DNA of 42,113 bases from Anaerolineales bacterium (GTDB lineage: Bacteria; Chloroflexota; Anaerolineae; Anaerolineales; Villigracilaceae), in the NCBI GenBank assembly GCA_919902735.1, contig CAKKRM010000131.1, positions 1 to 42,113 of the forward strand, read 5' to 3'. A program made the translations under genes and the position numbers. Below the pieces are notes generated by a model that saw only the letters and a list, made by a program, of their open reading frames with translations, was not told the origin of the DNA and did no database searches. Position 1 is the stretch's first letter, and every line of letters begins with the position of its first letter. Shown here piece after piece: positions 30,996 to 41,890 of this stretch.

Positions 30996-32255
30996 ATGAA
31001 TCCCCAATCTCTTTTGAAAATAGACCCCAACCGCCTCGACGCGGTCAACTCCGTTTTGCTCGACCCCAACTCGCGCGTGATGAAAGCTTTTCTTGATGTG
31101 GTTGCCAAATACGGCGCTCCCGAAGAGATCAATCGCAAGCACCGCGAATCGCGCAAGATGGAGAATCTCTTCAAGCAAGTGGAAGCCAAAGCGCCCGAAT
31201 ACATCAAAGACCTCAACTGGCTGATCGAACAACGTGACAGCGGCGCATTTGTCTCAGTCGCAGACTACAGGCTCAAAGTTAAGGGCGAAGCGGCGAAGAC
31301 GATCAAATTCAAAGATGAGTACGCCGTCACGCTCGAAGTATCCGCATTGCAATACTTCCCGTGGATTCGCGTCATAGCGGAACAAGCCATTGCCAACAAG
31401 ACCCTTGTGCCTGGGCGATTTATCGCGGTCCGCAACATGAAAGAATCCGAAGCGGATGGCGACCTGCCCGCGATTGTCGCCGCGCTCGATATCATCGGCG
31501 CGTCGTTTGTGGAAACGCTCGACACGAAAGGCACCGACGGCTCAAACCCGCACCTCGGCGGCCCTGCCACCATCACAGGTTATTTCGGCGGCATCGGTCA
31601 GCCCAACGAACACGCGCTGATGTGGCTGGATGAATTTTTGTATTACTACACCCACTACGGCGTGCAGCATGTTTTGAATTTCAACGCGGGCACGATCCTG
31701 CTTGGTTTCATGCTCTACAAACTCGGCGTGGATATTCAATTCAAGATTTCTGTCTTCTTCGGTTCGGACAATCCCTATCATGCGCTGTGGATCATGACGA
31801 TGGCGAAACTATTCAGCCGAGATGATGGAACCAGCCCGCTGATCGGATTCAACTGGTCGAACTCGATCAACAACGAGACGATGGAACTGACCGCCGACTT
31901 CCGCAAGGCGCTTGGCTTTGAAAAAGTAGTGCGCTTCGAACATCACATTACCGAACCACAGAAGAGCATCGTCATCCAACCCTACAACCGCCGCGCTGAA
32001 CTGGTGGAGATCGCCGACCACGTAGCGAACATCGCCGCCAAGCACGAAGGCGGCGACCCCGAAGTGGACGTGACTCGCGCCCACCTCTCTGACATCCTCG
32101 ATTACTTCCGTGAGAAAAAAGAGGTGATTGAAAGCGGCGATTGGGACAACCTGCAACTCAACTTCATGGACAAAGTTGCAGCCTGCAACAACTCGGCCCA
32201 CGCGCTGACCGAGAAGGGTTTGAGTTTTATCGCGGCGAAGAATTTGCACAAGTAA
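30996..32255 (+). CDS. Large soluble protein of unrecognised family
   Basis: The 419-residue protein has no signal peptide or membrane helix. Conserved-looking blocks are DTKGTDGSNPHLGGPATIT (about 171-189), YYTHYGVQHVLNFNAGTI (about 213-230), FFGSDNPYHALWIMTMAKLF (about 249-268), IGFNWSNSINNETMEL (about 278-293) and VVRFEHHITEP (about 309-319). Gly/Asn/His-rich blocks between alternating strands and helices suggest a barrel-type enzyme. I do not recognise the function, and the panB neighbour is only suggestive. AAAAGGAAA precedes the ATG. Related 7-bp repeats flank both ends of the gene. Confidence 0.68.
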   Translation: MNPQSLLKIDPNRLDAVNSVLLDPNSRVMKAFLDVVAKYGAPEEINRKHRESRKMENLFKQVEAKAPEYIKDLNWLIEQRDSGAFVSVADYRLKVKGEAAKTIKFKDEYAVTLEVSALQYFPWIRVIAEQAIANKTLVPGRFIAVRNMKESEADGDLPAIVAALDIIGASFVETLDTKGTDGSNPHLGGPATITGYFGGIGQPNEHALMWLDEFLYYYTHYGVQHVLNFNAGTILLGFMLYKLGVDIQFKISVFFGSDNPYHALWIMTMAKLFSRDDGTSPLIGFNWSNSINNETMELTADFRKALGFEKVVRFEHHITEPQKSIVIQPYNRRAELVEIADHVANIAAKHEGGDPEVDVTRAHLSDILDYFREKKEVIESGDWDNLQLNFMDKVAACNNSAHALTEKGLSFIAAKNLHK

Positions 32256-32490: not shown

Positions 32491-33174
32491 ATGCCAAACC
32501 GTGATCTTGCTGCAAAACGTCTTCTGGCTGTAACGGAAGAGGAACTCCAGCGCATTGTGCTGGATATTCACGACGGGCCGGTGCAAAATCTCTTCGCCGC
32601 GCTCAGCCAGTTGACTTTGCTTCGGTCGCGCATAAGCGCAATTCAACCGCCCGCCGATGATTGCATTGCGGTCGTCAACCGCACGATCAACCTGCTCGAA
32701 TCTTCGCTGGGGGATATTCGTGACCTGCTGGGGACGTTTCGTTCTGCAGAGTTTGCAACCCGCGGACTGGCGGAAATCGTGGAAGATATCGTGATCCAGC
32801 ATGAATCCTTCAATTCCGGCAGGGTGACGCTTGAAATGGATGGGGCGCTGCTCCAGCCTGTATCCATGCCGGTCAAAATTGCATTGTGCCGCATCTTGCA
32901 GGAGTCGCTTTCGAATGTTCGCCGCCATGCCGGGGTGGAAAATGCTTCAGTTAAATTATGGGTGGAAAAAGAAAACCTGGTTCTCGAAGTCGCCGATCAG
33001 GGACGCGGATTCGAGCCGCCTCCGTTAAGCGGGCCGCACGCAACAGAACGGCAGGAACATATTGGTCTGCGCGGGATGCGCGAGCGGGCCGCATTGGTGG
33101 GTGGAAAATTATTCGTCGAGAGTCAACCCGGCGCAGGGACGTGCGTTCGCGTGGAGGTTCCACTTCATGAGTGA
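32491..33174 (+). CDS. Cytoplasmic NarL/DegS-type histidine kinase
   Basis: The 227-residue protein lacks membrane and sensor domains. It has a HisKA_3 dimerisation domain with LDIHDGPVQNLFAALSQL at residues 24-41; the His in DIHDGPVQ is the phosphorylation site. A HATPase_c domain has the N-box ILQESLSNVRRHAG, EVADQGRGFEPPP and GLRGMRERAALVGGKL. A sensor partner would have to be another protein, since no input domain is present. The stop overlaps the response-regulator start by 8 nt (33167-33174), so translation is coupled. The pair lies just upstream of the Calvin cycle operon. Confidence 0.92.
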   Translation: MPNRDLAAKRLLAVTEEELQRIVLDIHDGPVQNLFAALSQLTLLRSRISAIQPPADDCIAVVNRTINLLESSLGDIRDLLGTFRSAEFATRGLAEIVEDIVIQHESFNSGRVTLEMDGALLQPVSMPVKIALCRILQESLSNVRRHAGVENASVKLWVEKENLVLEVADQGRGFEPPPLSGPHATERQEHIGLRGMRERAALVGGKLFVESQPGAGTCVRVEVPLHE

Positions 33175-33787
33175 TATACGGGCAATCCGTGTTGTTCTGG
33201 CAGATGACCATGCCCTCGTGCTGGAAGGTTTGCGCGCCCTGCTGTCTGCCGAGCCTGATTTAACCGTGGTTGCAACCGCTACCGATGGGGAACGCCTTCT
33301 GGATGCAGTACGCCGCTTCACTCCGGATGTGGTGGCAATGGATTTGCAAATGCCTTTCATGGATGGGTTGACCTGTTTGAAGAACATCCGCGCAGAAGGA
33401 TTGCCTGTGCGTGTGCTGGTCATCAGCGCGTTTGGAGATTCCCAATCCCTGCGCTCGGCAGTGGAAGGCGGCGCAGACGGCTTTGCCCTCAAAACCGACC
33501 CGCCCGAAATGACCCTCGCCGCCATTCGCCAGGTGGCGAGAGGGCACATGGTTTTCCCCGAAGCCGTTCGCCGCTGGTTAATTCAAAAACCAGCACAAGA
33601 CCCGAACGCGCTCACCGACCGCGAAGAGGCCGTGCTTGCGCTCATCGCGGAAGGCAAAAGCAACGCCCAGATCGGCATGGCGCTGAGCCTGAGCGAAAAT
33701 ACCGTCAAGTTCCATTTAAAGAATCTCTTCGCCAAACTTGGTGTAACCAACCGCACCGAAGCCGCCGCAAAATTTCACAAACGCTAG
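33167..33787 (+). CDS. NarL-type response regulator
   Basis: The 206-residue protein has an intact receiver (VVLADDHALVLEGLR, phospho-acceptor in VVAMDLQMPFMDGL, Lys in FALKTD). A LuxR-type helix-turn-helix lies at about residues 143-206 (LTDREEAVLALIAEGKSN, SENTVKFHLKNLFAKLGV). A GGAGG site lies 10-14 nt before the ATG, inside the kinase gene. It is the cognate partner of the preceding kinase. The aldolase gene starts 123 nt downstream, and the spacer holds a CTCACA-N9-TGTGAG dyad. It is a plausible regulator of the Calvin cycle genes (inference). Confidence 0.94.
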   Translation: MSDIRAIRVVLADDHALVLEGLRALLSAEPDLTVVATATDGERLLDAVRRFTPDVVAMDLQMPFMDGLTCLKNIRAEGLPVRVLVISAFGDSQSLRSAVEGGADGFALKTDPPEMTLAAIRQVARGHMVFPEAVRRWLIQKPAQDPNALTDREEAVLALIAEGKSNAQIGMALSLSENTVKFHLKNLFAKLGVTNRTEAAAKFHKR

Positions 33788-33825: not shown

Positions 33826-33877
33826 CTCACAAACTATCCATGTGAGCGTTCCCCTGCACGCGCTCCGATGCTATCCT
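33826..33877 (+). promoter_or_regulatory. Candidate operator and promoter of the Calvin cycle operon
   Basis: A perfect dyad CTCACA-N9-TGTGAG (33826-33846) is followed by TATCCT at 33872-33877, 33 nt before the aldolase ATG. The 17-bp-spaced -35 position (33849-33854, TTCCCC) is poor, as expected for an activator-dependent promoter. The dyad lies just upstream of it. Confidence 0.45.
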
Positions 33878-33909
33878 TGCTCCATGCAAACAGAGAAAGG
33901 ATGTTCCCA

Positions 33910-34872
33910 ATGATCGTATCGACTGCCGAATTATTCAAAGCTGCCTATGGAAAATTTGCGGTGGGGGCGTATAACATCAACAACATGGAGCAGGCGCTGG
34001 GCCTGTTTCAGGGGCACATCGTTGCGCAGGCTCCTTTCATTATTCAGATATCAAAAGGCGCGCGCAAGTATGCGGGGGTAACAATGCTCGAAGCCATGAT
34101 CCGCGCCTGTGACGAAATGTATCCCGAAGCCATTTACGCCGTTCACCTCGATCATGGCGACGAAAAAACCTGCTATGAATGTATCGACTCCGGCTTCTAT
34201 TCCTCCGTCATGATCGACGCTTCGCATGAATCCTTCGAGCAAAATGCCGCCATCACGCGCCGCGTTGTGGAACGCGCACATGCCAAAGGATTAAGCGTCG
34301 AAGCGGAAATGGGCATGTTGGGCGGCGTCGAGGAACACGTCAGCGTGGATGAAAAACATGCCATGCTCACCGACCCTGATGAAGCCAAAGCATTCGTAGA
34401 CCAAAGCGGATGCGACAGCCTGGCCGTTGCCATCGGCACGAGCCACGGCGCGTATAAATTCAGCGGAAGCCAGGGTCTGCACTTCGACCGCATCGCTGAA
34501 ATTCAAAAACGACTGCCCGGTTTCCCGCTGGTGATGCACGGTTCGAGTTCGGTGCCAAAAGCCGAAGTGGAGAAAATCAATTCGGCGGGCGGCCAGCTCG
34601 ACCCGTCGGCAAGAGGCGTAAATGAATCGGAGTTCGCAAAAGCCGTCCCGTTGGGAGTCACAAAAGTCAATATCGATACCGATGGCCGCCTGGTCTGGAC
34701 TCGCGTTCACCGCGAATACCTGCGCGACAATCCAAAAGATTTCGATTTCCGCAAACCGGGGGCGGCATACATCCAGGCCTATGCCGATTTCATCGTGCAA
34801 AAATCAATCGCCCTGCTTTCCACGGGCACACTCGCGGATGTGCGCGCTGCCGTCGCCGCGAGCGCCACATGA
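33910..34872 (+). CDS. fba: Class II fructose-bisphosphate aldolase
   Basis: The 320-residue zinc enzyme interconverts fructose-1,6-bisphosphate with DHAP and GAP. In the Calvin cycle it also makes sedoheptulose-1,7-bisphosphate. Class II marks are VGAYNINNMEQ, the Zn-binding VHLDHGDEK, EAEMGMLGG, AVAIGTSHGAYKFSG and LVMHGSSSVP. The C-terminal segment VTKVNIDTDGRLVWT is typical. Met at 33910 follows GAGAAAGGA at a good distance; upstream Mets are less likely. It is the first gene of the operon, and its stop overlaps the glpX start by 4 nt (ATGA). Confidence 0.94.
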   Translation: MIVSTAELFKAAYGKFAVGAYNINNMEQALGLFQGHIVAQAPFIIQISKGARKYAGVTMLEAMIRACDEMYPEAIYAVHLDHGDEKTCYECIDSGFYSSVMIDASHESFEQNAAITRRVVERAHAKGLSVEAEMGMLGGVEEHVSVDEKHAMLTDPDEAKAFVDQSGCDSLAVAIGTSHGAYKFSGSQGLHFDRIAEIQKRLPGFPLVMHGSSSVPKAEVEKINSAGGQLDPSARGVNESEFAKAVPLGVTKVNIDTDGRLVWTRVHREYLRDNPKDFDFRKPGAAYIQAYADFIVQKSIALLSTGTLADVRAAVAASAT

Positions 34873-35891
34873 AAGCCGCAGCTGATTCACAAAACCCCAT
34901 GAGTGAAACTCCGAACCGCAACCTCGCCCTCGAATTGGTGCGCGTCACCGAAGCCGCCGCGCTTGCTGCAGGTCATTGGATGGGCCGCGGCCAAAAGGAA
35001 GCCGGCGACGGCGCGGCAGTGGAAGCCATGCGGCTGATCCTTGCCACGATTGACATGGACGGCGTTGTCGTCATTGGCGAAGGCGCAAAAGATGAAGCGC
35101 CCATGCTCTTCGACGGCGAACGAATTGGCAACGGTTCTGGCCCCGCTGTCGACCTGGCTGTCGATCCCATCGAGGGAACATCCCTGCTTGCCTACGGGCG
35201 GCCCGATGCGATTTCTGTCGTAGCCATTGCCCCGCGAGGGACGATGTGGTCGCCGGGGCCGGCATATTACATGAACAAACTCGTTGTTGGAAGTGAGGCT
35301 CGCGCCGCGCTTCATCCGCGACTTTTAGCTGCTCCTGTTTCTGAGACATTATCCGCCATTGCGGCATCCCTCCGCAAACCCCTCGGCGACCTGACCATCT
35401 TCGTGCTCGACAAACCCCGCCACCAAAAACTCATCGCGGATATCCGCGAAGCCGGCGCGCGCGTTTTACTCCGCACCGATGGCGACGTGGCCGGCGCGCT
35501 CATGGCCGCCATGCCCAACTCTGGCGTGGATGTATTGATGGGCATCGGCGGCACTCCCGAAGGTGTGATTGCCGCTTGCGCGATCCGTGCCTTGGGCGGC
35601 GCCATGCTCGGCCAGCTCGCGCCGCAAAAAGAGGATGAACGCAAAGTCGTTGAAGAAGCCGGCTTTGATCTTGGCCGCGTGCTGACCGAACTCGACCTGG
35701 TGCAAAGCGACGATGTCTTCTTTGCCGCCACCGGCATCACCGACGGCGTGCTGATGCCCGGCGTGCATTACTACGGTGACGGCGCAAGCACCGTCTCCAT
35801 CGTCATGCGCGGAAAGACGGGAACCGTGCGAAGAATCCACGCCGATCACCGCCTCGATAAACTGCGCGAGATCAGCGCGGTGGCGTATTAG
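34869..35891 (+). CDS. glpX: Class II fructose-1,6-bisphosphatase (GlpX type; likely FBPase/SBPase)
   Basis: The 340-residue phosphatase removes the 1-phosphate from fructose-1,6-bisphosphate and, in cyanobacterial homologues, also from sedoheptulose-1,7-bisphosphate. All GlpX motifs are present: QKEAGDGAAVEAMR (catalytic Lys and Asp), VVIGEGAKDEAPML, DPIEGT, PGPAYYMNKLVVG, RTDGDVAGAL and GIGGTPEGV. It is the catalytically complete copy. Its start overlaps the aldolase stop. The second copy at 40210 lacks most of these residues. It is separated from rbcL by a 150-nt spacer with a nested palindrome. Confidence 0.93.
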   Translation: MKAAADSQNPMSETPNRNLALELVRVTEAAALAAGHWMGRGQKEAGDGAAVEAMRLILATIDMDGVVVIGEGAKDEAPMLFDGERIGNGSGPAVDLAVDPIEGTSLLAYGRPDAISVVAIAPRGTMWSPGPAYYMNKLVVGSEARAALHPRLLAAPVSETLSAIAASLRKPLGDLTIFVLDKPRHQKLIADIREAGARVLLRTDGDVAGALMAAMPNSGVDVLMGIGGTPEGVIAACAIRALGGAMLGQLAPQKEDERKVVEEAGFDLGRVLTELDLVQSDDVFFAATGITDGVLMPGVHYYGDGASTVSIVMRGKTGTVRRIHADHRLDKLREISAVAY

Positions 35892-36041: not shown

Positions 36042-37496
36042 ATGTCCAAAGCGAAAGCAGATACAAAAGATGAAAAAGCGTTGTTCGATGCGGGGGTAAA
36101 GGAATACAGCGCAGCCGGTCGTTATTATTACGACATTGGCTATAAACCAACTGAAACCCAGGTGTTGGCGGCATTTCGAATCACTCCGCAGGAGGGCGTT
36201 TCGTTTGAAGAAGCGGCTGCGGCTGTGGCGGCTGAATCCTCCTTCTCTACATGGACAACCGTGTGGTCCGATTACCTGGTGGATGCCTCGCGCTATTCTG
36301 CGCGCACGTATGAAATGAAGGCCGTCCCCGGCCACCCCGATCAGATGATGGCCTACATCGCTTATCCGCTGGATTTATTTGAAGAAGGCTCGATGGGTAA
36401 CTTGATGTCGTCGCTCGTGGGTAATGTGTTTGGATTCAAACCATTGCGCGCCCTGCGCCTCGAAGACCTTTACTTCCCGCCCGCATTGCTCAGCACATTC
36501 CAGGGACCTCCGCATGGCATTCAAGTGGAGCGCGATCGCATGGACAAATATGGCCGTCCCCTGCTCGGCGCGACGATGAAACCGAAACTCGGTCTTTCTG
36601 CCAAGAACTATGGGCGCGTGGTGTACGAAGCCTTACGCGGCGGGCTGGACTTTACCAAGGATGATGAGAATATCACCTCCCAGCCTTTCATGCGCTGGCG
36701 TGACCGCTGCGAGTTCGTGATGAGCGCCGTCAAACAGGCTGAAGCCGAAACCGGCGAGCGCAAAGGACACTACCTCAACGTCACCGCCGGCGACATGGAG
36801 GAAATGTACGCCCGCGCTGAACTGGCAAAGGAACTTGGTTCGCGCATTATCATGGTGGACTATCTCATCGTCGGTTTTACCGCTTTCACATCGCTTTCCA
36901 AGTGGTGCCGTCGAAATGGAATGTTGTTACATGCCCATCGCGCCATGCACTCGGTTCTGGACCGCCAGCCGAATCACGGCATCAACTGGCGCGTGCTTGC
37001 CAAGATGTGCCGCATCGTCGGCGCGGATCACCTGCATAACGGAACCGTTGTCGGAAAACTTGAAGGCGACCGCGCCTCCACCATCGGCATCAATGAAATG
37101 ATGCGCGAAACCCGCGTTGCAACCGTGGAGCAATGCCCCGGCCATCACTTTGACCAGCCCTGGCTTTCCATGCCCGGCATGTTCCCAGTCGCTTCGGGGG
37201 GCATCCACGTTTGGCACATGCCGGAGCTAGTATCCATTTTTGGCGATGAAGTGATCCTGCAATTCGGGGGCGGGACGGTTGGACATCCGTGGGGAAGCGC
37301 GGCGGGAGCCACTGCCAACCGTGTTGCGCTGGAAGCCGTCATACAGGCGCGCAACGAAGGCCGCAACCTGCTCGCCGAGGGAACAGACATCCTCAAATCT
37401 GCCGCAAAGCATAGCGGTGAACTGCGCGCCGCCATGGAAACCTGGAAGGATATTACCTTCGATTACGAATCCGTGGACGCGCTGGAGAAACCATAA
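36042..37496 (+). CDS. rbcL: Form I RuBisCO large subunit
   Basis: The 484-residue catalytic subunit carboxylates ribulose-1,5-bisphosphate. The active site is complete: [35 protein letters not shown] with the carbamylated Lys at residue 206, HAHRAMH, loop 6 GKLEGDR with Lys339, [12 protein letters not shown] and [12 protein letters not shown]. The sequence mixes green-type marks ([22 protein letters not shown]) with red-type marks ([33 protein letters not shown]). This suggests a deep or separate Form I lineage. AAAGGAG precedes the ATG. A gene for a minimal small subunit follows. No cbbX, cbbO or cbbQ activase gene is nearby. Confidence 0.97.
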
Positions 37497-37573
37497 CCGT
37501 AGCGCACACTTGCCCTGACGTGCAAGCGCCAGGGAGATTCATCTTGCGAGTGGCGGGTTTCCCTCAAAACACG

Positions 37574-37591
37574 CGCAACATGAATGTTGCG
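37574..37591. repeat. Short palindrome upstream of rbcS
   Basis: CGCAACAT-GA-ATGTTGCG is an 8-bp inverted repeat 25 nt before the rbcS start, with the same ACATGAATGT core as 3088-3105. Confidence 0.5.
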
Positions 37592-37615
37592 GCACAAAAT
37601 CAAGGAGCAATTGAA

Positions 37616-37915
37616 ATGAAAACCGAAACCTTTTCCTATCTTCCCACCTTTACCCGTGAACAGATCGAAAAGCAGATTCAATACTTTCTGAAAAACAACT
37701 GGGTGGTCGGCATTGAATATACCTCCCAGCCGAATCCGTCCCTTGCATTTTGGGATTGGTGGAAACTGCCGCTGTTCAGCATGAAATCCGTCAGCGAAAT
37801 CATGGCTGAGATCGAAGCCTGCAAGGCGAATCACACGAATTGCTTTATCCGCATTACCAGTTATGACAACGCGCGCCAAACCCAGGTGATGAGCTTCGTT
37901 GTACACAGACCTTAA
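37616..37915 (+). CDS. rbcS: RuBisCO small subunit (minimal form)
   Basis: The 99-residue protein matches Form I small subunits: TFSYLPTFTREQIEKQIQY at residues 4-22, then GIEYT, FWDWWKLPLF (usual YWxMWKLP), VMAEIEAC-like IMAEIEAC and YDNARQTQVMSFVVHRP at the C-terminus. It ends at that point, so it has no C-terminal beta-hairpin extension of red-type (IC/ID) subunits. The beta-A/beta-B loop is also short. The start at 37616 follows AAGGAG; the frame is open further upstream but the family starts here. It completes an L8S8-type enzyme. It lies 119 nt after rbcL. Confidence 0.93.
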   Translation: MKTETFSYLPTFTREQIEKQIQYFLKNNWVVGIEYTSQPNPSLAFWDWWKLPLFSMKSVSEIMAEIEACKANHTNCFIRITSYDNARQTQVMSFVVHRP

Positions 37916-38077: not shown

Positions 38078-39076
38078 ATGATCAAACAACGCCCAATCAT
38101 CCTGGCTATTGTAGGAGACAGCGCTGCAGGAAAGAGCACCCTTACCAATGGCTTGGTTCAAATTCTAGGGGCAGACCGCGTCACAGTCGTCTGCACCGAC
38201 GACTATCACAAATATGACCGGCAGGAACGCGCGCAGCTTGACGTCACGCCTCTGCATCCCGATTGCAACTACATGGATGTGTTGGAGCTTCACCTGGAGC
38301 GCCTGCATTACGGACAGCCTTTCCTCAAGCCGGTTTATGAACATTCGAGCGGCACGCTGATCCGCCCGGAATATATTCGTCCGCGCGAATTTGTGATTGT
38401 GGAAGGCCTGCTCGGTTTTCATTCCGCTGTCATGCGCCAGTTCTATGATGTGAAGGTATTTCTAGATCCGCCGGAGGATATGAGAACGGCATGGAAGATC
38501 AAGCGCGATACCAGCAAGCGCGGTTACAAACCCGAGCAGGTAGTGGCTGAAATGAAAAAGCGCGAGGTGGATACGCTTAAATACATCCGGCCCCAGCGCG
38601 AACATGCAGATATTGTCGTCCGCTTTCACGCGGATGAAGGCGTGAAAGCGCAGGATGCCGGGCCGAACCTCAATGTTCAACTCGTTCTGCGTCCGACGAT
38701 TCCGCACCCGGACCTGACCTACCTGATTGAGGGAACGCATCATACCCCGACCGATATCCGTCTGCGGCTTGGACGAGATGGCGGCCGCCCGGTGGATTTT
38801 CTCGAAATTGCCGGCAACGTGAATGCCGACAACGCCAAAAGACTCGAAGATGCGATTTGGCAGCATCTGCCCGACCTGCGCCCCGTGCGCGAGGATCAGT
38901 TCGGCGATTACCAGGACCGCCTGGAAGTGAAACACAGCCATCCGCTGGCTCTTTCGCAATTGTTGATTACCTATCACTTGCTGCGCAAGTACAGCAACCT
39001 TGCGCAGATTCCAATGGCGCCGCCGGTGGCTGCGTTGAGTCGGATGCATTCAACGCCTTCGGCTGAGTCGGAATAG
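38078..39076 (+). CDS. prk: Phosphoribulokinase
   Basis: The 332-residue kinase phosphorylates ribulose-5-phosphate to RuBP, the defining Calvin cycle step with RuBisCO. The P-loop is GDSAAGKST at residues 13-21. VCTDDYHKYDR, the Asp/His segment TPLHPDCNYMDVLELHL, and FLKPVYEHSSGTL follow. IVEGLLGFHS is the Walker B region. The family branch is class II (cyanobacterial/plant-like), as opposed to the proteobacterial class I. AGAAGGTG precedes the ATG. It lies 162 nt after rbcS. No regulatory cysteine pair is obvious at the N-terminus. Confidence 0.96.
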   Translation: MIKQRPIILAIVGDSAAGKSTLTNGLVQILGADRVTVVCTDDYHKYDRQERAQLDVTPLHPDCNYMDVLELHLERLHYGQPFLKPVYEHSSGTLIRPEYIRPREFVIVEGLLGFHSAVMRQFYDVKVFLDPPEDMRTAWKIKRDTSKRGYKPEQVVAEMKKREVDTLKYIRPQREHADIVVRFHADEGVKAQDAGPNLNVQLVLRPTIPHPDLTYLIEGTHHTPTDIRLRLGRDGGRPVDFLEIAGNVNADNAKRLEDAIWQHLPDLRPVREDQFGDYQDRLEVKHSHPLALSQLLITYHLLRKYSNLAQIPMAPPVAALSRMHSTPSAESE

Positions 39077-39167
39077 CAGAATCAATTTTTAGCGAAGAAA
39101 AATTTGATTTGGGCGAATCAGTTGTCGGCGCGGCAGGATGCGAGAAGTCCATCGAAAAGGATTAAGC

Positions 39168-40199
39168 ATGAGCGATGAATATGACGTCACAGTGATCGGC
39201 GCGGGACCTGCCGGCTTGTTTGCCGCGTTCTATGCCGGGCTGCGAAATCTCAAAACGTTGGTTCTCGAAGCATTGCCGAGGCCGGGCGGTCAGATCACTG
39301 CGTTGTACCCGGAAAAATATATTTACGATGTGGGCGGCTTCCCCGCTATTTTGGGGCGTGACCTGGTGACGGAGCTTTATAAACAAGCGGCGCAGTTTGG
39401 CGCAGATTTCAAGTTTAACGAGCGCGTAGAATCTTTGGAGGCGCTCGAAGCGGGGCATTTGAAGTTGACCACAACCGAAGCCGCGTATTCGAGCAAGACT
39501 GTTATCATTGCCGCGGGCATTGGCGCGTTTCAACCGAACCGACTCAATGTGGCCGGCGCGGCGGAACTTGAAGGAAAAGGGGTTTCGTATGTGGTGCGCG
39601 AGCGCGAGAAATTTTTGGGGCGGCGCCTGCTGGTGATTGGCGGAGGCGATACGGCTGTGGATTGGTCGCTGGAACTTCGCAATTGGGCCAGCGAGGTGAC
39701 GTTGATCCATCGCCTCGATTATTTCGAGGCGCACCAGCGCAGTGTGATTGCCTTGTATGATTCGCAGGTGAATGTGCATACGCAAAACGAACTTATCCGC
39801 GTTTCGGGCAAGGATGCGGTGGAATGCGCCGTGATCCGTGATAATGTTACCGGCGATGAACGCACGCTGGATGTGGATGATATTCTGGTTTGCATCGGTT
39901 TTCGCGCCGACCTTGGGCCCATCAGTCAGTGGGGGCTTAATTTGGAGGGACGCAAGGTTTCAGTCAACCGACAGGCGGAGACTTCGATGCCCGGCGTTTA
40001 TGCAATCGGAGATATTGCATATCCGCAGGATGGCGTCAGCATGAATTTGATCGCCTATGGGTTTGGTCAGGCCACATTGGCGGTGGGGCACGCCAGTCAT
40101 TTCATCCACCCGAAGGAGCGCGTGACGCACGGGCACAGCAGTCAACGCAAGGGAATGAAGTATGCGCCCGCGCCCGGTTCCGCGCAGGTTGATGAATAA
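39168..40199 (+). CDS. Thioredoxin-reductase-like ferredoxin-NADP reductase
   Basis: The 343-residue flavoprotein has the TrxR fold. The FAD-binding GAGPAGLFAAFYAG is at residues 11-24, the NADPH-binding VIGGGDTAVDWSLEL lies near 160-174, and the second FAD motif is GVYAIGDIAYPQDG. It lacks the CxxC redox pair found between these in thioredoxin reductases (the region reads VVREREKFLGRRL). That makes it the YumC-like FNR type. It transfers electrons between NADPH and ferredoxin. Placed between prk and the second glpX, it could provide NADPH for GAP formation or link ferredoxin to the cycle (inference). AAAAGG precedes the ATG at 39168. Confidence 0.9.
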   Translation: MSDEYDVTVIGAGPAGLFAAFYAGLRNLKTLVLEALPRPGGQITALYPEKYIYDVGGFPAILGRDLVTELYKQAAQFGADFKFNERVESLEALEAGHLKLTTTEAAYSSKTVIIAAGIGAFQPNRLNVAGAAELEGKGVSYVVREREKFLGRRLLVIGGGDTAVDWSLELRNWASEVTLIHRLDYFEAHQRSVIALYDSQVNVHTQNELIRVSGKDAVECAVIRDNVTGDERTLDVDDILVCIGFRADLGPISQWGLNLEGRKVSVNRQAETSMPGVYAIGDIAYPQDGVSMNLIAYGFGQATLAVGHASHFIHPKERVTHGHSSQRKGMKYAPAPGSAQVDE

Positions 40200-40209
40200 G
40201 GAGAAACAC

Positions 40210-41232
40210 ATGTCAGAAAGACCACAACGGAATTTATCGCTGGAATTGGTACGCGCCACCGAAGCCGCCGCGCTTGTGGCCGCGCGTTACCGTGATCTCA
40301 AGAAATGGGACTCCGCGAATTCAGCCGCCACAAATGCCATGCGGCTTGTTTTGCAGACGATTGACATGGACGGCGTCATCATGGTGGGCGAAGGCGAGAA
40401 ACACAGCGCCCCGCTTCTTTTTCACGGCGAAATGGTTGGCACCGGCCATCCGCCCGCTGTGGATGTGGCGGCTGACCCAATCGAAGGCACACCATCCCGT
40501 TCGCTCGGACGCCCAAATACACTATCCCTCGCCGCCCTCGCCGAACGCTGGAGTCTGTGGGACCCCGGCCCCAGCATCTATGTGGATGAGATCGTGGTCG
40601 GTTCTGCCGCGCGCGACGCCATTGATTTGAATCTCAGCCCAACGGAAAACCTGCAACAGATCGCCGAGGCGTTGAATTGCGAGGTCAGCGACCTGAACGT
40701 TTTTGTTTTGGACAAACCCCGCCACGAAAATTTGATCCGCGAATTGAACGAAGCGGGCGCGCGGGTGAAGATCAACTCCGGCGGTTTCATCGTCGGCGCA
40801 ATTCTGGCGGCCATGCCCGGCACCGGCGTGGATGTGATGATGAGCATCGGGCGCGCCTCCGAATCTGTTCTCGCCGCCTGCGCCGTCAAAGCAGTGGATG
40901 GCGGGATGCAAATCCGCCGCGCGCCGCAAAGTGACGATGAAATGAAGCGCGTGCAAGCCGCGATGGGAAAACGAGCCGCTCAGACTTTAAGTGGGGCTGA
41001 TCTCTGCAAATCTGACGATGTTTTCTTCGCCGCCACAGGCATCACCGACGGCGCGCTTTTGCGCGGAGTGGATTTCCAACGCGATGGCGTAACCACAGAA
41101 AGCCTCGTGATGCGCGCGCGTTCCGGCACGATCCGCTATGTGCGCGCGCTTCATCAACTGGATAAACTCATGCGCTTCAGTCAAATCGATTACACCGGCG
41201 ATAATAAAGAAAAGGCGGAAAGCCATGGTTAA
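40210..41232 (+). CDS. GlpX paralogue with lost catalytic residues
   Basis: The 340-residue protein aligns with GlpX (34869) end to end without gaps in the key motifs. Catalytic positions differ: QKEAGD becomes KWDSAN (Lys to Trp, Asp to Asn), GEGAKDEAP becomes GEGEKHSAP (Asp-Glu to His-Ser), RTDGDVAG becomes NSGGFIVG, GGTPEGV becomes GRASESV, and YYMNK becomes IYVDE. DPIEGT and DDVFFAATGITDG are kept. The frame is intact, so it is probably a functional non-catalytic or altered-specificity protein. AGGAGA precedes the ATG at 40210. It overlaps the epimerase gene by 8 nt, so the two are translationally coupled. Confidence 0.9.
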   Translation: MSERPQRNLSLELVRATEAAALVAARYRDLKKWDSANSAATNAMRLVLQTIDMDGVIMVGEGEKHSAPLLFHGEMVGTGHPPAVDVAADPIEGTPSRSLGRPNTLSLAALAERWSLWDPGPSIYVDEIVVGSAARDAIDLNLSPTENLQQIAEALNCEVSDLNVFVLDKPRHENLIRELNEAGARVKINSGGFIVGAILAAMPGTGVDVMMSIGRASESVLAACAVKAVDGGMQIRRAPQSDDEMKRVQAAMGKRAAQTLSGADLCKSDDVFFAATGITDGALLRGVDFQRDGVTTESLVMRARSGTIRYVRALHQLDKLMRFSQIDYTGDNKEKAESHG

Positions 41233-41890
41233 ACTGGCCCCCTCCATTCTAGCCGCAAATTTTGCCCGCCTCGAAGACCACGCCCGCGAAGCCGTCAGCG
41301 CCGGGGCCGAGTGGCTGCACATCGACGTGATGGATGGACACTTCGTCCCCAACATCAGCATCGGCCCGCTCATTGTGGACGCCTTGCGTCCGCTGAAAGA
41401 AGAGACCGGCATCCTGCTCGATGTGCATTTGATGATCGAGAAACCCGAGCGCTACATTGCCGATTTTGTAAAAGCCGGCGCAGATATTATCACTGTGCAT
41501 GTGGAAACCTGCCCGCATTTGCACCGAACCATCAGCCACATCAAGGAACTGGGCGCGAAGGCGGGCGTCACGTTGAACCCATCCACTTCGCTCGACGCAT
41601 TGGAAGAGGTTTTGGCGGATGCAGACCTGGTGTTGATTATGTCCGTCAACCCCGGCTTCGGCGGTCAAAAATACATTCCAGCGTCAACGGCAAAAATCCA
41701 CCGCCTGCGCCAGATGCTGGATGCTATTGCCTCGAAAGCCTTTCTCGAAGTGGATGGGGGAGTCTATGCCGGGAACGCCGCTGAAATCGTCCACGCGGGA
41801 GCAGACGTATTGGTAGCCGGAAGCGCAATCTTCGGCGGGACGAAATCGGTCGCCGAGAACGTATCCGCATTGCGGGCAGCGTCCGGGTAG
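41225..41890 (+). CDS. rpe: Ribulose-phosphate 3-epimerase
   Basis: The 221-residue TIM-barrel enzyme converts xylulose-5-phosphate to ribulose-5-phosphate for the RuBP-regenerating step. Signatures are complete: LAPSILAANFARL, LHIDVMDGHFVPNISIGP, LDVHLMIEKPERYI, HVETCPHLHRT, MSVNPGFGGQKYI and EVDGGV. The metal-binding His and Asp residues are visible in HIDVMDG, VHLMI and VDGG. Its start overlaps the GlpX-like gene by 8 nt; AAAAGGCGG precedes the ATG. It is the last gene of the operon. No clear T-tract terminator follows. Confidence 0.97.
   Translation: MVKLAPSILAANFARLEDHAREAVSAGAEWLHIDVMDGHFVPNISIGPLIVDALRPLKEETGILLDVHLMIEKPERYIADFVKAGADIITVHVETCPHLHRTISHIKELGAKAGVTLNPSTSLDALEEVLADADLVLIMSVNPGFGGQKYIPASTAKIHRLRQMLDAIASKAFLEVDGGVYAGNAAEIVHAGADVLVAGSAIFGGTKSVAENVSALRAASG

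Follow-up and report, generated by a model that had tools for sequence, protein, structure and literature searches.

The name form I-Anaero is said to go back to Schulz et al. in 2022. In the sections available of PMC11251275, PMC12663927, and PMC12999727, it denotes a deep group of Form I RuBisCO; the first lists it among form I enzymes, which are described as L8S8, the second gives form I Anaero a median rate of 3.7 per second, and the third remarks on its "positional instability," places it as sister to IC/IE and Thermus, and describes it as being without rbcS. The origin of the need of Form I for a small subunit (SSU) has been studied with reconstructed ancestors, and the accessible part of PMC11696622 reports five substitutions that create this dependence, with effects that vary with context. 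As for the small subunit itself, the available text of PMC9833052 proposes that red-type RbcS may be nearer the ancestral form. In the portion at hand of PMC10135865, Ca. Promineofilum breve is named for Form I', the related form without a small subunit.

We examined a window of 42,113 nucleotides, the whole of the analyzed stretch of contig CAKKRM010000131.1 from an Anaerolineales bacterium (Chloroflexota; GCA_919902735.1, 4.26 Mb, 96% complete). It encodes a Form I large subunit (LSU) and a short SSU, and their neighbors form part of the Calvin cycle (FBA, two GlpX, PRK, and RPE):

32491..33174, forward strand: histidine kinase (HK), upstream; candidate cluster regulator, proposed from its conserved position
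33062..33787, forward strand: LuxR-type response regulator (RR), upstream; putative regulator
33868..34872, forward strand: class II fructose-bisphosphate aldolase (FBA), in the same cluster, upstream of rbcL
34869..35891, forward strand: GlpX-type (class II) fructose-bisphosphatase, copy 1
36042..37496, forward strand: rbcL/cbbL (P0001), Form I RuBisCO large subunit, 484 aa; Pfam RuBisCO_large and RuBisCO_large_N, named by NCBIfam
37616..37915, forward strand: rbcS/cbbS (P0002), RuBisCO small subunit, 99 aa; Pfam RuBisCO_small
38078..39076, forward strand: phosphoribulokinase (PRK), above the NCBIfam subfamily cut-off
39138..40199, forward strand: thioredoxin-reductase-like pyridine nucleotide-disulphide oxidoreductase (TrxR), under the NCBIfam thioredoxin reductase cut-off
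40162..41232, forward strand: GlpX-type fructose-bisphosphatase, copy 2
41138..41890, forward strand: ribulose-phosphate 3-epimerase (RPE)

The ORFs, their lengths, and the Pfam matches bear out the RbcL and RbcS genes, the positions, and the 99-residue SSU described in an earlier note on this DNA. P0002 matches PF00101 at 126.5 bits and its gene starts 119 bases past the end of rbcL; in NCBIfam its sole match is a CcmM SSU-like domain, far under the cut-off of that model. In the genome, P0001 and the small subunit each have a single match. The order HK, RR, FBA, GlpX, RbcL, RbcS, PRK, TrxR, GlpX, RPE is repeated in two other genomes of the genus (L206 and L208), indicating that the window cluster is not an assembly artefact. 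The locus very probably encodes a working, SSU-bearing Form I RuBisCO among Calvin-cycle genes, which belongs to a deep clade apart from IA/IB and the red crown and has kept a short SSU; the genes, the clade, the intact catalytic positions, the missing hairpin, and the conserved surroundings are observed, and octamer formation, SSU dependence, activity, and membership in form I-Anaero are inferred. The RuBisCO would carboxylate RuBP supplied by the PRK encoded two genes downstream of rbcL, while the aldolase, GlpX, and epimerase would regenerate sugars. As in other Form I enzymes, the small subunits, here of 99 residues and free of the C-terminal hairpin of red enzymes, would cap the octamer of large subunits and hold it together; the enzyme keeps the short SSU common to the sampled deep lineages.

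An HK and a LuxR-type RR also stand upstream of the RuBisCO cluster in L206, L207, L208, L223, L224, L218, L222, and L006, which makes two-component control of the cluster a possibility; no Pfam match to a LysR-type regulator (CbbR) was obtained among the 29 window proteins scanned. Two different GlpX-type fructose-bisphosphatases per cluster (34869-35891 and 40162-41232 in the window) recur in L206-L209 and L223, and one copy may, as a guess, be a sedoheptulose-bisphosphatase. An ORF of 419 aa at 30996-32255, without a Pfam or NCBIfam match at 1e-3, lies near the cluster in L206 as well.

Beyond the window, a Form I gene was retrieved from 8 of the 57 genomes of the genus, including the window's own, and a PF00101 match from 18 of 396 genomes of the class. 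Such sparse occurrence implies that the gene is dispensable for the genus and is the one point in favor of a RuBisCO that has decayed and lost its function, or of a RuBisCO-like protein. That reading is highly improbable: all 19 catalytic positions checked, mapped through 6ekc, are intact in P0001 and in its 17 aligned relatives, PRK and other Calvin-cycle genes are adjacent, and the copies in the seven other species share 90-99% identity and have no internal stops. A degenerate copy was rejected on the catalytic positions and these intact homologues. Farther afield, two Saprospiraceae (Bacteroidota) metagenome-assembled genomes (MAGs; L004 and L005) carry relatives at 76-77% identity, with PRK and aldolase nearby, suggesting horizontal transfer or mis-binning; one paper, to judge by its listing on vent-crab epibionts, mentions Saprospiraceae, rubisco, Calvin, and form I together. 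L002 and L003 are from Chloroflexota, and L003 is identical to L138, from the class of the window genome. In another genome of that class (G372), the printed alignment of RbcL with 6ura, presumably Form I' RuBisCO from Ca. Promineofilum breve, spans 462 residues and shows no mismatch. At L218:1112-2986 (genome G1340, 83% complete), in a family where many members hold Form I', the only match is an LSU of the window enzyme's clade with a short SSU. Searching viral contigs with P0002 gave no locus.

The earlier note had read the large subunit as a mosaic of green and red motifs. We therefore counted motifs in an LSU alignment of P0001 with 14 IA, 66 IB, 65 red, 17 focal (the clade of the window enzyme), 7 stem, and 8 Form I' sequences and two reconstructed ancestors. 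Large subunits of 400 aa or fewer were excluded from identity and motif counts and L123 from the motif count, P0001 itself was uncounted, and the sets hold repeats (L138 equals L003, L083 equals L008, and L145 equals L010 in the LSU; some red loci occur twice per genome, as in L087/L135 and L089/L127). All six quoted motifs do occur in P0001, and HRAMH and GHPWG are green-like, HRAMH being present in 8/8 Form I' sequences as well. The label "red-type" did not survive the counts: VILQFGGGT occurs in 6/65 red, 0/80 green, and 8/17 focal sequences; [12 protein letters not shown] in 12/65, 1/80, and 15/17, plus the reconstructed ancestor; and TWKDITF in 1/65, 0/80, and 5/17. On these counts, the supposed red motifs are markers of the focal clade or of an ancient state and not of red enzymes.

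Diagnostic columns gave a compatible picture. Of 33 columns with one state shared by IA and IB (at least 80% each) and another in red (at least 80%), P0001 carries the green state in 19, the red state in 4, and a different one in 10; for the reconstructed ancestor (7qsw) the numbers are 26, 5, and 2. Every one of the 19 green-like states is also the reconstructed ancestral state, in a comparison that leans on the published tree on which the ancestor was inferred, and nine are also the Form I' majority state; they are accordingly no sign of green kinship. The red-like states lie at positions 87, 177, 193, and 470, and three of the four equal the ancestor. Recombination between a green and a red large subunit, or a chimera of the two, would account for the motif mix, but the rarity of the "red" motifs in red enzymes, the ancestral character of most red-like states, and the nearly identical column counts of the relatives L002, L138, and L141 make it very improbable, and it was rejected on motif and diagnostic-column counts. 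The pattern of P0001 is best described, from the residues compared, as retention of old states and not mixing, for which "mosaic" is the wrong word.

Phylogenetic analysis placed the enzyme outside both major lineages. Tree 1 comprised 81 LSU rows (LG+C20) and tree 2 comprised 47 LSU rows with five Form I' sequences as outgroup. Red crown labels were C. necator, S. meliloti, and Galdieria (IC, ID); 1bxn and 1bwv serve as IC/ID labels, which the structure match supports. This crown also includes rows whose phylum is that of locus L010 (Acidimicrobiia), presumably form IE, in trees that hold no labelled IE sequence. In tree 1, the focal clade (17 rows), the IA/IB crown, and the red crown received 99/100, 100/97, and 100/99, and in tree 2 the focal clade, green crown, and red crown received 100/99, 99/97, and 100/100, all starred. 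The focal clade consists of Chloroflexota plus the two Saprospiraceae MAGs. As it lies outside both crowns in each LSU tree, the proposal of a deep-branching, SSU-bearing Form I holds.

Where the clade attaches is less sharply defined. Tree 1 joins it to L010/L145, L085, and the red crown at 92/89, not starred. This would fit a stem-red Form I that split off before the red hairpin and CbbX, as would the placement of I-Anaero in the available text of PMC12999727. Against that stand a constraint tree uniting focal, green, and stem-green sequences, which scores above the free search by 3.19 log units (AU p 0.554), red-like states at only 4/33 columns, and the LSU+SSU tree, where the focal clade (100/99, starred) sits in a polytomy with green, red plus L085, L006/L084, L083/L143, and L145. 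We regard a stem-red origin as a serious possibility that falls short of probable. A stem-green or ordinary green Form I, with the focal clade as sister of IA/IB, draws on the same constraint, on the corresponding grouping in tree 2 (p 0.116; 0.241 with the green crown alone), on the 19 green-like columns, and on the best extant PDB chains of P0001 being cyanobacterial (6ekc and 2ybv). Weighed against the ancestral nature of all 19 states, an IA/IB crown that excludes the focal clade in both trees, and the results for placement with IB (p 0.043, weakly rejected) and IA (p 0.066, not quite rejected), a green affinity seems possible but rather unlikely.

For the remaining placements, the AU test gave p 0.068 for focal plus red crown in tree 2, 0.24 for focal as first-branching in the LSU data, and 4.7e-11 for focal forced with IC/ID, which is rejected; with LSU+SSU data, the values were 0.11 with the red crown, 0.328 with the red crown plus L085, and 0.198 with the green crown. 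Because the clade groups were named after the first tree had been seen, these p values are approximate. The SSU-only tree is weak, and L007, L083/L143, and L145 shift place between trees. Taken together, the sequences favor a focal clade outside the IA/IB and red crowns, for which the AU test allows stem-green, stem-red, and first-branching positions.

Given that a longer SSU from another start would have changed the picture, we inspected the rbcS start. The frame is open upstream to an in-frame GTG at 37520, giving an alternative of 131 aa. AAGGAG precedes the ATG at 37616, and the start MxTETFSYLP or a one-letter variant occurs in 12 of the 15 focal rows displayed (L140, L141, and L009 differ); the longer product was rejected on these two grounds. 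The C-terminus is set by the stop codon, so absence of the hairpin is independent of start choice. In the alignment, P0002 stops right after FVVHRP without a red-type tail, as the earlier note had said. An AlphaFold2 model from 12 sequences (pLDDT 86.9) has two helices and a final strand at 89-97 of 99; compared with solved RbcS chains, it reaches Z scores of up to 17.6, and with the ancestral chain 7qsy_B the score is Z 17.4, with an rmsd of 1.4 across 96 residues. P0002 lacks the N-terminal extension present in seven of the eight IA/IB rows displayed. The short loop singled out in the earlier note proved ordinary: the betaA-betaB loop is as long as in the ancestral SSU and nearly all IA, IB, and red rows, the exceptions being L122 (one residue longer) and L145 (shorter).

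Small subunits of the focal clade span 96-107 aa (median 100) and red ones 117-154 aa (median 140), with starts set at the first Met near the match, a rule that shortens some IA small subunits. Identity to the ancestral SSU 7qsy_B is 54.5% for P0002, and means are 54.6% for focal (n=18) and 52.9% for stem sequences (n=9), versus 42.9% for IA (n=14), 46.4% for red (n=67), and 46.6% for IB (n=65), where row L020 of the SSU table is not RbcS but a longer protein that carries an SSU-like match. The focal clade is a source of natural enzymes whose 99-aa small subunit resembles the ancestral one.

The red hairpin (betaE-betaF at the SSU C-terminus) is absent from P0002, 17 other focal rows, and 9 stem rows of the alignment. 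Red rows listed have 23-49 residues past the match, bar L105 with 12; focal and stem SSUs have short ends of up to 13 residues (L143 the longest), none equivalent to the red hairpin. Outside the red crown, no row of the alignment has it, not even that of a stem-red genome in which a CbbX-like gene is already present, and on both trees the hairpin is one change. The hairpin thus seems to have been acquired once, at a later stage, along the red branch. The survey argues against the idea of an ancestral red RbcS as worded in the available part of PMC9833052; our data point the other way. The stem-red genome is G288 (LSU L085), whose 102-aa SSU without hairpin is encoded at L232:6442-6750 (+), directly beside the CbbX-like gene at L232:6758-7681 (+; 432 bits, cut-off 459); its LSU gene, L203:6164-7624 (-), lies ~11 kb from the SSU gene. 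Support for L085 as stem-red is 99/98 in the 81-row LSU tree and in the LSU+SSU tree and 96/97 in the 47-row tree, all starred. If L085 is stem-red, this suggests that CbbX arose before the hairpin.

Activase searches covered eight focal genomes (G000, G080, G413, G414, G439, G485, G487, and G541). No CbbX match exceeded the cut-off of 459 or even 22 bits (best match in the 96% complete window genome, G000, 20.1 bits), by a criterion under which 8 of 14 control genomes matched, none over the cut-off, and the clear CbbX-like gene of G288 also fell below it. CbbQ_C gave no match in the same eight genomes and, among controls, matched only in Bacillus subtilis. As for electron donors, 17 genomes were searched for NiFe hydrogenase, with full-length matches in G413, G414, G429, and G485; the sole match in G000 scored 20.5 bits, under the cut-off of 25.8. 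Those at G414:C29:188413-189951 and G485:C103:11832-13379 contain in-frame TGA codons (1 and 2, respectively) and are possible selenocysteine enzymes.

The earlier note also placed this lineage close to the acquisition of the small subunit. The best PDB match of P0001 is 7qsw_A at 805 bits (best extant chain, 715), that of P0002 is 7qsy_B/7qsw_B, and the entry title of 7qsw gives it as the last common ancestor of Form I with an SSU. Identity between P0001 and the ancestral LSU is 75.2% (rank 95/173), and cyanobacteria reach 84.8%; the top PDB position of 7qsw therefore says little by itself, and the notion of a large subunit unusually close to the ancestor was rejected on this rank. At the five dependence sites known from the accessible text of PMC11696622, P0001 has the dependent state at four (W288, R290, N292, and I211); position 177 has Ala, where the earlier state is Gly and the ancestor has Cys. 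P0001 and P0002 are expected, as far as these residues indicate, to form an L8S8 enzyme needing its small subunit. Depth of the clade thus stood, and proximity to SSU gain was weakened by the four dependence changes and the LSU rank. That the focal clade is among the earliest surviving SSU-bearing RuBisCOs, with an ancestral SSU free of extensions and function independent of the activases CbbX and CbbQ, and so a living stand-in for the enzyme just after SSU gain, is doubtful; against calling it "the earliest," L007, a Thermaerobacter MAG, branches first in the LSU+SSU tree (97/87, starred).

Comparison with described systems returns us to form I-Anaero. As in the available accounts of that group, the focal clade is a deep Form I lineage, unstable between green and red, and its Chloroflexota hosts agree with the phyla reported (Chloroflexota or Firmicutes), for which a thermophilic or anaerobic life is described. 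Accounts of the group disagree about rbcS, which is present in the window: PMC12999727 describes I-Anaero as without it, which would exclude the window enzyme, and PMC11251275 counts I-Anaero among form I enzymes described as L8S8. By position and host phylum, the focal clade is most likely form I-Anaero or a close neighbor, and L006/L084 or L007 could equally be I-Anaero. The ancestor 7qsw (AncLS/AncSSU) resembles the window enzyme in an SSU of 99 aa without extensions, whereas cyanobacterial LSUs are nearer to it than P0001 is. Form IA/IB shares HRAMH, HVWHMP, and GHPWG and an SSU without the red hairpin, but P0001 falls outside that crown and P0002 lacks the N-terminal extension. With the red type (IC/ID and relatives), the enzyme has in common the Form I fold and a betaA-betaB loop of equal length in the alignment, but it has neither HRAG[NH] nor HAGQMH in P0001, no SSU hairpin, and no CbbX over the cut-off. 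Form I' (6ura; L107) shares the host class and LSU homology of 54%; it is described as lacking a small subunit in the accessible text of PMC10135865, whereas the window has rbcS and SSU-dependence states. Given that deep Form I branches outside green and red are already in print as form I-Anaero, in the parts of those papers available, the window enzyme is, on present comparisons, a useful further member and not a new kind of enzyme.
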